A stretch of DNA of 20,154 nucleotides. Origin: a virus. Shown here in pieces: positions 44 to 18,905 of this stretch (the stretch's first letter is position 1; each line of letters starts with the position of its first letter). The translations under genes and the position numbers were made by a program. Where the stretch lies: the IMG/VR virus record IMGVR_UViG_3300009180_000272, positions 1 through 20,154 of that record, one strand, 5' to 3'. The notes beneath the pieces were generated by a model that was not told the DNA's origin, did no database searches, and saw only the letters and a list, made by a program, of their open reading frames with translations.

Positions 44-1264
44 TTAGGCTTTCTGTGACTTGGCATGGCTTTTAATGGGAATTACGTTGTCGACCAACTT
101 TGGTCGTATTTCAAAGTATTTCCTCGCTACCTCCGTGTTCAAGGATTCACCATTTACGGTGATCGTCTTGTATGTCCCAAGCAAGATACCTACGGAGTGA
201 CCGCAGGCTAGAGCCGTTTGGGCAGCGTTTTGGGTATACGCCAAATGGTACGAGGCAAATGAATGCCGCATACCATTGTCGATCCACTTTGCTGGGAGTC
301 TCGGGTTTTCCTGAGACGCCAACCAAGGACTTATTAGTGTGGTGGGGTATCGCGATTTGGTGGTTGCGAGAATGTTTCCGGTCATGCCTTTATAGGGAGC
401 AAGCCATTCGGCAAGGTTTGGCATAAGGGGAGCAAGGCGGCTTTGGTTGGTCTTGGTGATCTCTCGATCAAGTCGGATGTTACCGCCGACCCAATCAATG
501 TTCTCCCACTTTAAACGAGCAAGCTCGGCTGAGCGTATGCCTGCAAATAGGCCAATAGCTATGAACGGCACGAGCTTTTTGTCGCAAAGGCTAACTAAAG
601 CTTCAGCTTGCTCTGGCGAATAGATTTCTACTGGGGGTTTCTTGAATTTGATCTCTTCGGACTTCTCCGCAACGTGCTTGCGGTCTTCTGGGAGGTAGCC
701 TTTTCTCCTGGCGTAGTTAAAGAGTACAATGATGCCCGAGCGCTGGTTGTGACGAGTTCTAGGGGCATAGGAAGCGTCGGAAAGATACTCATCGAGGTCG
801 TGAGCTGTTATCAAGGAAACGGGCTTTGTGATCTTCGAAGCAAAGCGTTTTAAGATTCCCCGCATGGTAATCTTTTGAGCGTTGGAATTAATCGACAATT
901 CGTTCTTGGCTAAAAATTCTTCGACTAGGGCAGGGACGCGGATTTCTTTAGTCTCCGCTGGATTGGTCTGGAGATAAGCTTTTACTGCCCGGTCTAGCGG
1001 GACACCGTTAAGCATATTCTCGCAAGTCCTGTAGTACTGAAGGTCTCGCATCGTGATGCCTTCGGCTGGCAGGGCAGATCCGTCCGCGAGTTGCTCAACA
1101 ATTGCTTTTGCCTCACGTTTCGCCTCGGTGAGAGAAGCCAGCCCGCGACGCATTCTTTGTTTTCCTACTCTCCAGCACACGAAGTATGTTAAATATTTTC
1201 CTCGCACCTCGCATTCATAGATGCGAGCTTCTGCCCAACCTTTCTTAATTATGAGTGGCTTCAT
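44..1264 (-). CDS. int: Tyrosine recombinase / phage integrase
   Basis: This 406-residue protein should catalyse site-specific integration and excision of the phage. The C-terminal catalytic domain (about 215-390) shows R244 in AGIRSAELARLKW, a likely beta-hairpin K271, R333 in NGMRHSFASYH, H356 in CGHS and the probable nucleophile Y365 in GTYKTI. The first box II position is Asn330 rather than the usual His, which I recall as common in integrases of Verrucomicrobiota prophages. Residues 1-60 look like a small arm-DNA-binding domain and about 108-195 like the SAM-like core-binding domain. I chose ATG at 1264; an in-frame TTG at 1303 would add 13 residues but overlaps the promoter candidate. 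There is no Shine-Dalgarno before the ATG. It is the only leftward gene and is divergent from the terminase gene. Function is confident; host assignment is inference. Confidence 0.93.
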   Translation of the reverse strand: MKPLIIKKGWAEARIYECEVRGKYLTYFVCWRVGKQRMRRGLASLTEAKREAKAIVEQLADGSALPAEGITMRDLQYYRTCENMLNGVPLDRAVKAYLQTNPAETKEIRVPALVEEFLAKNELSINSNAQKITMRGILKRFASKITKPVSLITAHDLDEYLSDASYAPRTRHNQRSGIIVLFNYARRKGYLPEDRKHVAEKSEEIKFKKPPVEIYSPEQAEALVSLCDKKLVPFIAIGLFAGIRSAELARLKWENIDWVGGNIRLDREITKTNQSRLAPLMPNLAEWLAPYKGMTGNILATTKSRYPTTLISPWLASQENPRLPAKWIDNGMRHSFASYHLAYTQNAAQTALACGHSVGILLGTYKTITVNGESLNTEVARKYFEIRPKLVDNVIPIKSHAKSQKA

Positions 1265-1268
1265 TACA

Positions 1269-1297
1269 AATACAGTTTTATTGACAAATCTTGACAA
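1269..1297 (-). promoter_or_regulatory. Candidate integrase promoter
   Basis: On the minus strand TTGTCA (1297-1292) lies 17 bases before TGTATT (1274-1269), matching the bacterial -35 and -10 consensus at 5/6 and 4/6. The -10 box ends 4 bases before the ATG at 1264, so a transcript from it would begin at or next to the start codon. This fits the missing Shine-Dalgarno. The direct repeat TTGACAAAT overlaps the -35 box, so a protein bound there would block transcription. Confidence 0.4.
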
Positions 1298-1300
1298 ATG
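1281..1300 (+). repeat. Tandem 10-bp direct repeat TTGACAAATC/G
   Basis: Two copies of TTGACAAAT stand exactly 10 bp apart (1281 and 1291), on the same face of the helix, and cover the spacer and -35 box of the integrase promoter candidate. A second pair of 10-mers, TTGCCGATTA and TTGCCGATTG, follows at 1313-1332. They look like sites for two side-by-side protein subunits, for example a repressor or the integrase arm-binding domain. The binding partner is unknown. Confidence 0.55.
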
Positions 1301-1312
1301 CAATGAAAATCT

Positions 1313-1448
1313 TTGCCGATTATTGCCGATTGCGTTTCCGAGCTTTCCTATGTATTTTCCTTTTTATGAAGGGCTTATCGGAAATAGTTGGAAATAAGTA
1401 ACTTACATAAGCGGGGTCATAGCCCAATTGGAAAAGATCGGAAAAGCA
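1313..1448. repeat. Phased GGAAA/TTTCC array, candidate attP arm sites or operator
   Basis: After the TTGCCGATT pair (1313-1332) come TTTCC at 1335, 1344 and 1356, then GGAAA at 1380 and 1390 and again at 1430 and 1440. The last four sit in two 20-bp blocks (1379-1398 and 1429-1448) placed exactly 50 bp apart, each block a 10-bp tandem of (C/T)GGAAAN4. Seven copies of one pentamer, counting both strands, in about 110 bp is far above the roughly 0.2 expected. Between the blocks lie an 11-bp palindrome (TAAGT-A-ACTTA, 1395-1405) and an overlapping dyad CTTA-CA-TAAG (1402-1411). Tandem arm sites flanking a dyad core beside int are typical of phage attachment sites, but the core is not proven. 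Confidence 0.5.
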
Positions 1449-1485: not shown

Positions 1486-1513
1486 TTGACGGATTCTTGA
1501 CCACTTTTAACAT
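1486..1513 (+). promoter_or_regulatory. Candidate rightward promoter for the terminase/head operon
   Basis: TTGACG (1486-1491) lies 16 bases before TAACAT (1508-1513), a fair sigma70-like pair. The -10 box ends 5 bases before the ATG at 1519, so transcription would begin at or just inside the start codon. A second TTGACC lies at 1497. No other promoter-like pair was seen between the repeat array and the terminase gene. Confidence 0.4.
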
Positions 1514-1518
1514 TGCAA

Positions 1519-3246
1519 ATGGATGTGAGTGAGTCTTTTGAGCGATATGGGCGAACTTGGCCTTCCGGAACTACTGAATTAACAATTGAACTTATTGGTT
1601 TCCGCGAAAATTTTTCTGCAGAAAGCGGAGGTTTGGGAAAATATGCGCATTTTCGGAGAGTTGTAGAGCTACTTTGGCCGTATGATAAAAAGAAAAACAA
1701 AGGCGGATTTCAGTGGAATCCGTGGGCCGAAAGAATTTTTGAAGCCGCGTGTCAGCACAATTATCTTGGAATTTCAGGTCCTAAATCCTCGAGTAAAACT
1801 CACTGTATTGGAATTTGGGGTTTAGTGAATTGGCTTGCTGATCCCTTCAATACCTTGGTTCTTGTCACGACTACCTCTGTTCGTGAAGCGAGGAAACGGA
1901 TGTGGGGAGTGATACGGGAGAGGCATATCCAAGTTCAAGGCCTTCCGGGGAAGATCGTCGATTCAATGGGCAAATTAATTATGGAAGAAGCCGGCAGCGA
2001 TCGGTCGTCTATTACCCTGATCCCCTCGGCTAAGGATAAAGAGAAAGAAGCTACCGAGAAATTGATTGGGCTTAAAAATAAGAGAGTGTTCCTCCTTGTC
2101 GACGAAGCCACGGACGTTTCCCCAGCCATCTTCGAAGCCATCCACAATCTCGACTCCAACCCCTATTTCCAATGTATCGCTCTTGGTAACTTTGCCTCTG
2201 CATACGATCCTTTCGGTCAGTTCATAGCGCCAGTCAACACCTGGAACAGCGTGAATGCCGAAATGGATGAGTGGGATACTAGCCGGGGCAAATGCATCCA
2301 TCTCGACGGTGAGCGAACACCCAATATTGATTCAGACGATGAGTGGCCATTCCTACTCACAACCAAGCAACTTCGTGAGGCCAGGGAGTACCAAGGTGAA
2401 AACTCCCTTTCGTATTGGCGGTTCATCCGTTCTTTTCCCTCGCCCATCGGTGCTGAGCAGAACATTTATTCGGAAGCGGATATTCGTCGGTACGAAGGGG
2501 AGGCGCAGCCTGTTTGGGATGGGGCTCCCACAAAAGTAGCTGGGTTCGACCCAGCCTTCACCAATGGGGGAGATCGAAGCGTCCTGTATATTGGAGCTTA
2601 TGGTAAAACAAATGTAGGGGTACCTGCGGTATCCTTTGGGAAGCCCTATCTTTTGCGGGAAGACTCAACTAGGGCTAATGAACCGAGAAACTTTCAAATT
2701 GCCCGCCAGGTGCGCGAGATCTGCGAAAGAGAGGGGGTACGGCCGGAACACCTTGCGGTCGACGCTACGGGCGCAGGGGACCCGTTTTGTGACATCCTAA
2801 GCGAAATGTGGTCGTCCCGGGTCTTTCGGGTCAAGTTTGGAGAAAAACCAACAATGCTACCGACAAGTGGCATAAGCCCTGTACGGGCAAACGAGAAGTT
2901 CTCAAATCGCGTTACAGAGCTTTGGTATGTTGGTGTGGAGTTTTTGAGGTCTGGCCAGCTCAAAGGAATTACCCCGGATCTAGCTAGAGAGCTTACGGCA
3001 CGAAAATACAGCACCATGTCCGGAGGTAAACTTGTGGTTGAACCCAAAAAAGACATGAAGGCTAGAATGGGAAAGTCACCCGATTTGGCGGACGCAGCTT
3101 TTATGCTTTTAGATATCTGTCGCCATCGGCTTGGCGCTTATGCTGGAGGTAAACTTGTTGTGTCCCGCGGTGAGGGGTGGCTTAAACAAGCCGTAAAGAT
3201 GGACGTAAGTTCTTACGAAGACAGGCAGTTGCTTAACGCCGGATAG
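1519..3246 (+). CDS. terL: Terminase large subunit (packaging ATPase/nuclease)
   Basis: This 575-residue protein should be the DNA-packaging motor that docks on the portal, pumps DNA into the head and cuts concatemers. The ATPase half has a Walker A-type loop GPKSSSKT (87-94), a Walker B strand VFLLVDEA (190-197, D195 E196) and a coupling-motif-like ALGNFAS (221-227). The RNase H-like nuclease half shows three acidic positions: D344 in GFDPAF, D415 in LAVDATG and D525 in PDLADA. Length is normal for the family. ATG at 1519 is used; TTG at 1513 is two codons upstream. Neither has a Shine-Dalgarno, and a promoter candidate ends 5 bases upstream. No small-subunit gene is seen before it. A 14-bp sequence coding for GGKLV occurs twice near the 3' end. 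Confidence 0.93.
   Translation: MDVSESFERYGRTWPSGTTELTIELIGFRENFSAESGGLGKYAHFRRVVELLWPYDKKKNKGGFQWNPWAERIFEAACQHNYLGISGPKSSSKTHCIGIWGLVNWLADPFNTLVLVTTTSVREARKRMWGVIRERHIQVQGLPGKIVDSMGKLIMEEAGSDRSSITLIPSAKDKEKEATEKLIGLKNKRVFLLVDEATDVSPAIFEAIHNLDSNPYFQCIALGNFASAYDPFGQFIAPVNTWNSVNAEMDEWDTSRGKCIHLDGERTPNIDSDDEWPFLLTTKQLREAREYQGENSLSYWRFIRSFPSPIGAEQNIYSEADIRRYEGEAQPVWDGAPTKVAGFDPAFTNGGDRSVLYIGAYGKTNVGVPAVSFGKPYLLREDSTRANEPRNFQIARQVREICEREGVRPEHLAVDATGAGDPFCDILSEMWSSRVFRVKFGEKPTMLPTSGISPVRANEKFSNRVTELWYVGVEFLRSGQLKGITPDLARELTARKYSTMSGGKLVVEPKKDMKARMGKSPDLADAAFMLLDICRHRLGAYAGGKLVVSRGEGWLKQAVKMDVSSYEDRQLLNAG
3022..3158 (+). repeat. Short intragenic direct repeat in terL
   Basis: GGAGGTAAACTTGT occurs at 3022-3035 and again at 3145-3158, in the same frame, so the peptide GGKLVV appears twice near the terminase C-terminus. 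The sequence between the copies codes for the last nuclease acidic motif. This may be chance or local duplication. Confidence 0.5.
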
Positions 3247-16511: not shown

Positions 16512-17324
16512 ATGCCTACCAGTATTAGAAATCTACCACTTTTTGTTCCTGATGGGAACTTTCCAAAGGTACCAGCTTCTGGTGTTTTACCTATTGTAGT
16601 TAACGGTATTACGAGAAAGACATTTGTATCAAACGCCACAAATCTATGCGGTGGCGGAACTGTTACTGGCCTTACTGGCGGTCAAAACATATCAATATCA
16701 ACATCAAGCCCATCCTTTAACCAACGCAAAGTTATTATCAATTTTACATTTCCAGGCATTATTGTTCCGTACGTGATGAATGCGGAACAGCCTGCCGGCT
16801 GGTTATATTGTAACGGACAAGAGGTTAGTCGCGCTGAATACGCAAATCTGTTTGCAGTGGTAAGTACAACATATGGGTCTGGAAACACCACAACAACTTT
16901 TAATGTGCCAGATCTTCGTGGTCGCATACCTTTTGGGACCTCCGCAACAACCTCTAACCCTTTGAATGGCGCTATATTTGCCTCCGGAAACTCACTCACG
17001 GTCGCTTCAACCGGAGGGTCTGAGAACACTGTCTTGAACACAGCTCATGCTCCCATTCGTGATCATTCTCATACTGCCTCTGGGAGTATGATTGTTTATG
17101 GCAATCGGGACCGCTCAGATTTTGATGGTGAATGTTCCCCTCCAGGTAGTTTTGGTGATTACGGAGCTCCTGGGTCTATTGGTGGGCCTGGAACCGACTA
17201 CCCACTTTCAAAAAGCAATGTATCTACTTCAGTCCCAGTCTACCCCACAGCACCGTTAACCTCTGTTTTACCCCACAACAATATGCCCCCGTGCATATTC
17301 CTTACTTACCTAATAAAGACATAA
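16512..17324 (+). CDS. Collar-domain tail fibre, paralogue 1
   Basis: This 270-residue protein has an N-terminal attachment part (1-80) and a phage Tail Collar domain (about 81-141: FTFPGIIVPYVM, PAGWLYCNGQEVSRAEYANL, FNVPDLRGRIPFG). A Gly/Ser-rich C-terminal body follows with HSH (185-187), like metal-binding HxH sites of trimeric fibres, and it closes with NMPPCIFLTYLIKT. It probably forms a trimeric host-contact fibre. The TAA of the preceding gene directly touches its ATG, and TGGAG (16498-16502) lies 9 bases upstream. Genes 2 and 3 of the set share its whole plan. Confidence 0.82.
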   Translation: MPTSIRNLPLFVPDGNFPKVPASGVLPIVVNGITRKTFVSNATNLCGGGTVTGLTGGQNISISTSSPSFNQRKVIINFTFPGIIVPYVMNAEQPAGWLYCNGQEVSRAEYANLFAVVSTTYGSGNTTTTFNVPDLRGRIPFGTSATTSNPLNGAIFASGNSLTVASTGGSENTVLNTAHAPIRDHSHTASGSMIVYGNRDRSDFDGECSPPGSFGDYGAPGSIGGPGTDYPLSKSNVSTSVPVYPTAPLTSVLPHNNMPPCIFLTYLIKT

Positions 17325-17325
17325 T

Positions 17326-18159
17326 ATGGCGACATTTAAAATTACAGACTTAACTAATACCGACTTACCAACGTTGGCAACTGTGATCCCTTGCATTCAA
17401 GGGGAGGTCACTGAAGGGACATTGCTAACTGACTTTGTGACAAAACAAATTACTATTGGCCAAATACGAGATTTGTTTGACGTTTCAACGGTTAAAACAG
17501 TAAATGCCGGAATAGGAACAACTCTTTCTAGTTTTCCAATTACGACAAGTGGTACAGTAAGTTTTAATGCCCCGGGTCTAATGTGTCTTTATGCAGGAAC
17601 TCACGTCAACGGTGTCGCTAATCTGGCAATCCCAAGCGGATGGCTTGAGTGCAACGGGCAAGCAGTATCAAAGACTGGGACTACTGCAGCATTGTATGCG
17701 GCTATCGGCATAAAGTACGGCGGAACAGCTGGTGGGACTACCTTCAATCTCCCAAACCTGAGCGGTCGTGTTATTTGCGGCCTAGACACCGTCGATGCTT
17801 TAGCGGCTGGCGTACTTACCGAAACCTGGTGTGGGAGTGCCAGGAATACTCTTGGCGGTACTGTTGGCGCTAAAGGTGTATCACTTACTCAAGCACAAAT
17901 TCCACTTAAAAAACATTACCACACGTTAAGCTCTACTTTTACTCAGGGTTATTTCCGAAATGGTCGTAGTGGTGGAACACGCTCAGGAGCTGGTTTGGAG
18001 TACGATTTTTCAACAACATCTGGTGGCGGGAGGACGGCTTCTACGACACTACCTTTGACAATATCAAATCCTTCTGGAGGCGCTAGTGGTGTTACCTCGT
18101 CAACAGAGCATTCTCATTTACCTCCATTTATTCTGTTGAGGTATATTATAAAAATATGA
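17326..18159 (+). CDS. Collar-domain tail fibre, paralogue 2
   Basis: This 277-residue protein repeats the plan of its neighbours: N-terminal part with ITIGQIRDLFDV, collar domain at about 81-151 (PSGWLECNGQAVSK, TTFNLPNLSGRVICG), a Gly/Ser/Thr-rich body and a final PPFILLRYIIKI. It has two His-x-His motifs, HYH (197-199) and HSH (262-264), possible metal sites in a trimer. It is the most divergent of the three in the collar region (LPNLSGR in place of PDLRGR, and an insert near NGVANLAIP). Start follows the previous stop as TAA-T-ATG with no Shine-Dalgarno, and its own stop overlaps the next ATG (ATGA). Host recognition is the likely job. Confidence 0.8.
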   Translation: MATFKITDLTNTDLPTLATVIPCIQGEVTEGTLLTDFVTKQITIGQIRDLFDVSTVKTVNAGIGTTLSSFPITTSGTVSFNAPGLMCLYAGTHVNGVANLAIPSGWLECNGQAVSKTGTTAALYAAIGIKYGGTAGGTTFNLPNLSGRVICGLDTVDALAAGVLTETWCGSARNTLGGTVGAKGVSLTQAQIPLKKHYHTLSSTFTQGYFRNGRSGGTRSGAGLEYDFSTTSGGGRTASTTLPLTISNPSGGASGVTSSTEHSHLPPFILLRYIIKI

Positions 18160-18905
18160 AAATTAGCTATTTACCCGAAATTGTAAGCCCAAAGAAAACG
18201 GATACGTTTATCCCTTTCGTCTACCAGAATACCACTATTTTGGCCAGGATAGGTGACTTAAACATCACTGGAGCTCAACCTGGAGTTTCACAGATATCTG
18301 CAGGACAAAACATATACATTGACCCTCCTGACGCAACTTCTACGGCTAGCGTTAACTTTGATTTTCCAGGCGCCATATTTCCCTTCCCAACAGATCAACC
18401 GCCTGCTGGGTGGTTATATTGTCGAGGACAAAGCATCAGCAGAAATCTATACTCAAGACTATTCTCTGTAATTGGTGTTTCATATGGTAGTGGAGACGGT
18501 CGCCTTACATTTGGTCTTCCCGACTTACGTGGAAGAGTTATTGCAGGAGTTGAAAGCATGGGCGGTTCAGTAGCCTCGGGTCGTATTACAGCTTCTGTGG
18601 CCGGCAATGTTCAACCATTCTTAGGCACAACAGGTGGGGTGGAATGCACTGCCTTAAACACCGATCAAGTTCCAACGCTTTCGCATACTCATACGATAAG
18701 TTCAATTACTGCTGGTTTTGTAAATGGCAGGGTTGAGGGTGGAAATAGGTGCAGCGGCAACGATGACCAACCAAGAGGCAGGCTAGACGGTAGTGAAGCT
18801 GTGAACTTTAGCTTTGATCTTACTTACAGTACCACAGAAAACACTGCTACTGAGCACAGCAACATACCCCCACTTGCCTTTTTCTATTGGGCTATAAAAT
18901 ACTGA
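18156..18905 (+). CDS. Collar-domain tail fibre, paralogue 3
   Basis: This 249-residue protein is closest to paralogue 1 in the collar domain (about 66-131: VNFDFPGAIFPF, PAGWLYCRGQSISRNLYSRL, FGLPDLRGRVIAG). At DNA level both have GGTTATATTGT at the same place. The N-terminal part has ARIGDLNITGAQ and QISAGQNIYIDP, matching TGLTGGQNISIS of paralogue 1. HTH (177-179) is the His-x-His site, and the end is IPPLAFFYWAIKY. The middle of the body (about 185-220) is unlike the other two. It starts inside the stop of paralogue 2 and has no near Shine-Dalgarno, so it probably depends on translational coupling. Confidence 0.8.
   Translation: MKISYLPEIVSPKKTDTFIPFVYQNTTILARIGDLNITGAQPGVSQISAGQNIYIDPPDATSTASVNFDFPGAIFPFPTDQPPAGWLYCRGQSISRNLYSRLFSVIGVSYGSGDGRLTFGLPDLRGRVIAGVESMGGSVASGRITASVAGNVQPFLGTTGGVECTALNTDQVPTLSHTHTISSITAGFVNGRVEGGNRCSGNDDQPRGRLDGSEAVNFSFDLTYSTTENTATEHSNIPPLAFFYWAIKY

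Follow-up and report, generated by a model that had tools for sequence, protein, structure and literature searches.

A putative lambda-type attachment site with a tRNA 5'-end core between the integrase and terminase genes of an uncultivated phage family

In the attP of lambda, KplE1/HK620, P4 and HPI a core lies between two arms that carry short boxes of the same sequence, and in lambda-type attP sites the arm adjoining int holds additional tandem repeats. The 5' part of tRNA genes is the target of other elements. Archaeal plasmids of the pTN3 type insert there and cut the tRNA off from its promoter (PMC8371274, PMC5495485), and in Sinorhizobium meliloti 9 of 88 phage-related sequences integrated in tRNA genes use the 5' part (PMC11476347). 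Among 1,273 tRNA-integrase pairs, the divergent arrangement of int and rebuilt tRNA accounted, together with one other arrangement, for less than 8% (PMC2951348). In the tRNA-dependent lysogeny of actinobacteriophages the tRNA is destroyed and a phage tRNA replaces it (PMC10865867), and for mycobacteriophage Ms6 an altered attP core directs the unchanged Int to a different tRNA gene (PMC1762012).

We have analysed the IMG/VR record IMGVR_UViG_3300009180_000272, a virus sequence of 20,154 bases referred to throughout as the window. Comparison with relatives leads us to conclude that the 254 bp gap (1265-1518) between the divergent genes for an integrase (int, minus strand) and the terminase large subunit (terL, plus strand) is very probably the attP of a lambda-type (two-domain) tyrosine integrase. 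The gap shares with the lambda-type sites a core between two box-bearing arms and the extra tandem repeats next to int, and its integrase has SAM-like and catalytic domains and possibly an arm-binding-like N-terminal fold; it departs from them in the box word (TTGAC), in a core that is a tRNA 5' end, and in the low sequence similarity of the integrase (25% identity to the best phage matches). With the pTN3-type and S. meliloti elements it has in common a core from the 5' part of a tRNA, which would be rebuilt and separated from its promoter upon integration. Unlike pTN3, in which int is split, this is a tailed phage whose int would stay intact; its core stops within the D arm, where those of the 5'-part elements run past the anticodon. 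A tyrosine Int, a presumed attB in a tRNA gene and pairs of arm sites around the core are also features of the actinobacteriophages (PMC10865867), but the present phages have a core able to rebuild the tRNA, and the search for a tRNA gene of their own found none. Finally, while the Ms6 result came from mutagenesis among tRNA-Ala T-loops, the variation seen here is natural and lies between Ala-type and Lys-type 5' ends. That the site is of an ordinary kind in an uncommon sub-location is well supported by comparative sequence.

On this reading an integration site that is concrete and can be tested becomes available for an uncultivated phage family, along with a hint at its hosts, namely bacteria whose tRNA-Ala or tRNA-Lys begins with the core sequence. 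It would also add a phage case to the minority class of elements at tRNA 5' ends, where the host tRNA needs a new promoter, and natural core variation between two tRNA types would show one way in which integrases may switch targets.

Repeats and integrase of the int-terL gap

A first-pass annotation had pointed to an array of short repeats next to int, proposing it as candidate attP arm sites or as a lysogeny switch. All the words that it listed are present in the window: the words TTGACAAAT (1281 and 1291) and TTGCCGATT (1313 and 1323), each repeated in tandem at 10 bp, CGGAAA (1379) followed by TGGAAA (1389), TGGAAA (1429) followed by CGGAAA (1439), TTTCC (1335, 1344 and 1356), GCTTAT (1373) and ATAAGC (1407). 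It had noted neither a pair of TTGAC boxes on the terL side (1486, 1497) nor the tRNA-like core at 1413-1431. At lag 10 the gap contains four runs in which 6 or more bases match, versus a mean of 0.08 in 3000 dinucleotide-preserving shuffles of the gap, none of which reached four; 0 of 1500 shuffles gave four such runs at any lag from 4 to 39, and two 9-base runs were likewise unmatched by shuffles. The repeats beside int are real and far above chance. Rfam and ARAGORN recognized no credible RNA family and no complete tRNA in the gap, and a blastn comparison of the gap with sequenced phages returned zero matches. The coordinates of the features are collected in Table 1; a TTG at 1513 is a possible alternative upstream start of terL.

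Table 1. Features of the int-terL region in the window; functions given as candidate or possible are proposals.
Feature	Position	Strand	Basis or remark
Tyrosine integrase gene (int), 406 aa, ATG at 1264	44..1264	-	Pfam PF00589, E 7e-8; PHROG 1 integrase, E 1e-25
TTGAC box, candidate arm-type Int site, P arm, int side	1281..1285	+	same in every integrase locus compared
TTGAC box, candidate arm-type Int site, P arm	1291..1295	+	122-123 bp before core start, 17 loci and window
Tandem TTGCCGATT pair, candidate accessory P-arm repeat	1313..1331	+	10-bp pair; second copy in most relatives, first variable
CGGAAATAGTTGGAAA 10-bp pair, candidate directionality-factor or accessory site	1379..1394	+	GGAAATnnTTGGAA-type match, 16 of 17 loci
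ACTTAC directly before core, possible left core-type Int site	1401..1406	+	near-invariant alignment columns
Putative attP core, tRNA positions 1-19 (acceptor 5' strand and D arm)	1413..1431	+	exact IMG/VR matches to GGGGTCATAGCYCAATTGG outside the family at tRNA-Ala starts or in tRNA fragments
TTGAC box, candidate arm-type Int site, P' arm, terL side	1486..1490	+	73-74 bp after core start, 17 loci
TTGAC box, candidate arm-type Int site, P' arm	1497..1501	+	11 bp past previous box, every locus
Terminase large subunit gene (terL)	1519..3246	+	PHROG 2 terminase large subunit, E 5e-10

The product of int contains the catalytic domain of tyrosine recombinases, with a match to PF00589 above the cut-off. 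In the alignment of integrases R244, R333, H356 and Y365 (assigned by eye) are conserved and fit the catalytic pattern, while Asn330 takes the place of the usual His of HxxR (NGMR, within DNGMRHS) in all complete members of the family. The model of the full-length protein is of low confidence (pLDDT 56); among PDB structures it matches best that of lambda Int bound to core DNA (1z1b, E 9e-4). The N-terminal 65 residues are predicted as a sheet and a helix (pLDDT 90), and the top two PDB matches of this domain are arm-binding domains (3rmp and 3jtz, weak at E ~0.1), a weak fold match which suggests an arm-binding topology. The best phage matches of the integrase are 25% identical, and it shows a weak similarity to integrases of Akkermansia phages. 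A search of the genome collection with the integrase profile found just relatives of 24-34% identity in mixed phyla, none of them close; these are too distant to inform on the site in the gap.

Candidate arm boxes and their conservation among relatives

The gap was compared with its counterparts in 17 integrase loci and 26 terL loci from IMG/VR, which come largely from the same contigs; among the former L003 and L004 are nearly identical. Its anatomy is the same in 17/17 integrase loci, and no relative with the integrase lacks TTGAC boxes, a lack that would have spoken against an attP. In each gap the TTGAC boxes all read on the plus strand: there are 2-3 next to int and a further 2 towards terL. 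In the 17 loci these repeated candidate arm boxes keep fixed distances to the core, to its left as well as to its right. The third int-side copy, found in most relatives, is 13 bp nearer to int. Core, boxes and distances are kept with integrases that are just ~66% identical to that of the window. In the four long int-bearing relatives scanned for TTGAC clusters (G005, G004, G002 and G007), the densest same-strand cluster of the entire contig is the gap itself, with 5 boxes in 240 bp. On these comparative grounds the TTGAC boxes are the best candidates for arm sites.

The 10-bp periodicity emphasized in the first-pass annotation fared less well. The int-side boxes are 10 bp apart in the window and its nearest relatives, and most relatives have spacings of 13 + 9 bp, so that strict phasing of the arm candidates does not hold. 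Half of the pairs in that annotation are conserved. Besides the TTGAC boxes, the GGAAATnnTTGGAA pair (1380-1393 in the window) is kept in all loci except L035, and a TTGCC pair is kept loosely. Relatives do not keep the 1429/1439 pair, in place of which they show GGCAAAAAGTAGAAA, and without it the exact distance of 50 bp is not kept either; the inverted repeat formed by GCTTAT and ATAAGC is not conserved, nor is the GTAACTTAC dyad in its left half. By analogy with known systems, the TTGCCGATT pair may be a site for a directionality factor or a bending protein.

The loci L055-L057 have terL but neither TTGAC boxes nor core. Likewise, contig G010 (68 kb) is syntenic with G005 on both sides, with terL on one side and the neighbour gene of int on the other, and it encodes no PF00589 protein and has the core nowhere on the contig. 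The lack of both boxes and core in relatives devoid of int implies that the array travels with int. At the place of int and attP, between the conserved neighbours, G010 has an ORF of 440 aa (L113, 10176-11498). A separate irregularity is seen in L035 (G007:40073-41292), where the integrase is in two overlapping pieces (residues 1-348 and 344-405), through a frame change or an assembly error; core and TTGAC boxes are present there despite the split.

When placed on the window, the ends of the 75-kb contig G005 fall ~50 bases from each other, and the int-attP-terL junction is therefore internal to a circular or circularly permuted genome. That G005 nearly closes as a circle through this junction, and that the array comes and goes with int, both agree with the attP proposed at the outset; on this reading the window shows the free (non-integrated) form. 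G008 matches the window at 99.99% from 1323 onward and ends at that position. Two long contigs end inside the int-attP region, at the equivalents of ~1220 (L039/L010) and 1323 (L038) of the window; the assembly may have broken there by chance, or strains may vary at this site.

The putative core and its match to tRNA 5' ends

The core of the window reads GGGGTCATAGCCCAATTGG on the plus strand. An exact scan of IMG/VR for the Ala-type 19-mer, GGGGTCATAGCYCAATTGG, gave 20 stretches, of which 8 belong to this phage family. Among the 12 others, 8 were called as tRNA-Ala starting exactly there, 2 are cut by the end of the sequence and read like the same tRNA, and 2 are tRNA-like remnants: outside the phage family, the exact 19-mer occurs in IMG/VR only at tRNA-Ala starts or in evident fragments of tRNA-Ala. 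The window has one mismatch, a C at tRNA position 12 where every tRNA match has T; the cores of L003 and L004 have the T and match the tRNA exactly.

A Lys-type core, GGGTCGTTAGCYCAAT, is present in a more distant group and in L005. Its 19-mer had 9 other matches, 9/9 at a tRNA start and 7/9 in tRNA-Lys. In L005 this core sits in a sequence background that elsewhere goes with the Ala core, with similar flanks, and the change is confined to a block of 4 bases at tRNA positions 4-7. The resemblance to tRNA stops past the core, at CAAT in group 2 and at CAA in L036. The core thus corresponds to the 5' part of a tRNA gene, as judged by the match to IMG/VR tRNAs with the window differing at position 12, and most likely reproduces 15-19 bases from the start of a tRNA gene of the host, of the Ala type in the window. 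It lies at the edge of the region (1370-1430) in which the first-pass annotation had suggested looking for a shared core, with boxes on both sides at fixed distances, and in this respect too the attP reading is upheld.

Proposed integration, rival readings and the search for hosts

Lambda Int bridges arm sites and core, and the integrase studied here most likely does the same. By this analogy, its N-terminal domain would most likely bind the TTGAC boxes, 2-3 in the P arm and 2 in the P' arm, while the catalytic domain would act on the core (1413-1431), where strand exchange would take place. Recombination with a host tRNA gene would insert the phage, with terL and int at opposite ends of the prophage. 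At the int end the tRNA would be rebuilt from the phage core and the remainder of the host gene, with the P arm as its new upstream region, and the host tRNA promoter with a tRNA stub of 15-19 nt would be left beside terL. After such a 5'-end integration the rebuilt tRNA and int would be divergent, and the tRNA would be separated from its own promoter. ARAGORN found no tRNA gene on the window, G008, G005, G004 and G002, some of which are incomplete contigs, and a phage with no spare tRNA on the contigs scanned must preserve the host tRNA through its core. A tRNA-dependent lysogeny was considered and rejected, as there is no tRNA gene of the disrupted isotype on the window or on the four long relatives. 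A temperate lifestyle would follow from the presence of int and attP.

The sigma-70 scan recognized no convincing promoter before the core for the rebuilt tRNA, and no terminator-like site was found between the core and terL. One may speculate that in the lysogen the tRNA is transcribed from a P arm bound by Int and its directionality factor, coupling tRNA expression to the state of the prophage, that the orphaned host promoter points into the terL operon, and that the same Int lineage retargets from tRNA-Ala to tRNA-Lys by four core bases; we hold this extended scenario to be doubtful.

Different explanations can be given for the same features. The core might be used as proposed, but with GGAAA/TTTCC and TTGCC repeats as the arm-type sites and TTGAC serving an accessory factor or a promoter; GGAAATnnTTGGAA is indeed near-invariant as well, and it adjoins the core. 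However, only TTGAC is present to either side of the core in all integrase loci, whereas the GGAAA and TTGCC repeats are conserved on the int side only, which makes this variant improbable; in lambda, the Xis sites are on the int side of attP. A purely regulatory role of the gap, with the TTGAC pairs as -35 boxes or repressor operators for int and terL and the tRNA-like word as an incidental match or a decoy, draws on the divergence of the two genes, on the distance of 9-13 bp between boxes, and on the sigma-70 scan, in which the first TTGAC of each arm also qualifies as a -35 box and TTGACA-18-GAAAAT and TTGACG-16-TAACAT score as weak promoters. Yet these 2 promoter-like sites compare with 1.0 expected in shuffles, the boxes share one orientation despite the divergence of the genes, the gap has no repressor gene beside it, and the boxes disappear with int while terL remains; a tRNA start at a constant distance from the boxes would also be left unexplained. 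We therefore regard a purely regulatory region as very unlikely; a promoter function of the two boxes that qualify as -35 elements is conceivable. The operator of a lysogeny switch, the second of the initial proposals, was discarded on similar grounds: the flanking genes are int and terL with no repressor next to them, and the array is absent from relatives that have lost int.

It could also be argued that the site is no longer in use, its core being left over from a past integration event or from a captured phage tRNA gene. The public genomes searched contain no integrated copies, and L035 has a frame change near the C-terminus of the integrase. Against this, core, boxes and distances are kept at ~66% integrase identity, and both forms of the core correspond to genuine tRNA starts, which fits a site in use; we regard a disused site as very unlikely, and a lambda-type attP remains our preferred reading.

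No integrated copy was found among the int and terL loci from IMG/VR or in the genome collection, and the sequences searched contained no host attB, attL or attR. The exact core of either type is absent from the sampled genomes, which comprised 199 Planctomycetota for the GCCC form (79 for the GCTC form), 150 Pseudomonadota, 80 Actinomycetota and 14 others. These negative results weigh against the attP reading, as do the C at tRNA position 12 of the window core, the Asn in the HxxR motif, the resemblance of two TTGAC boxes to -35 elements and the weak fold match of the N-terminal domain. Nor was any host-phage junction found elsewhere, which would have contradicted an attP in the gap. A scan of IMG/VR with the P-arm motif for integrated copies returned the phage family itself and one chance match (L097), located inside an RCC1-like gene.

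Two observations concern the gene content of these phages outside of the gap. A single ORF, of 5127 aa in G008 (L081-L082, 10514-25897) and 5241 aa in G005 (47004-62729), takes up a fifth to a quarter of the contig. In the window, three adjacent tail-collar-like genes (16512-18905) have an AGWLYC-type motif in common and are apparently tandem paralogues.
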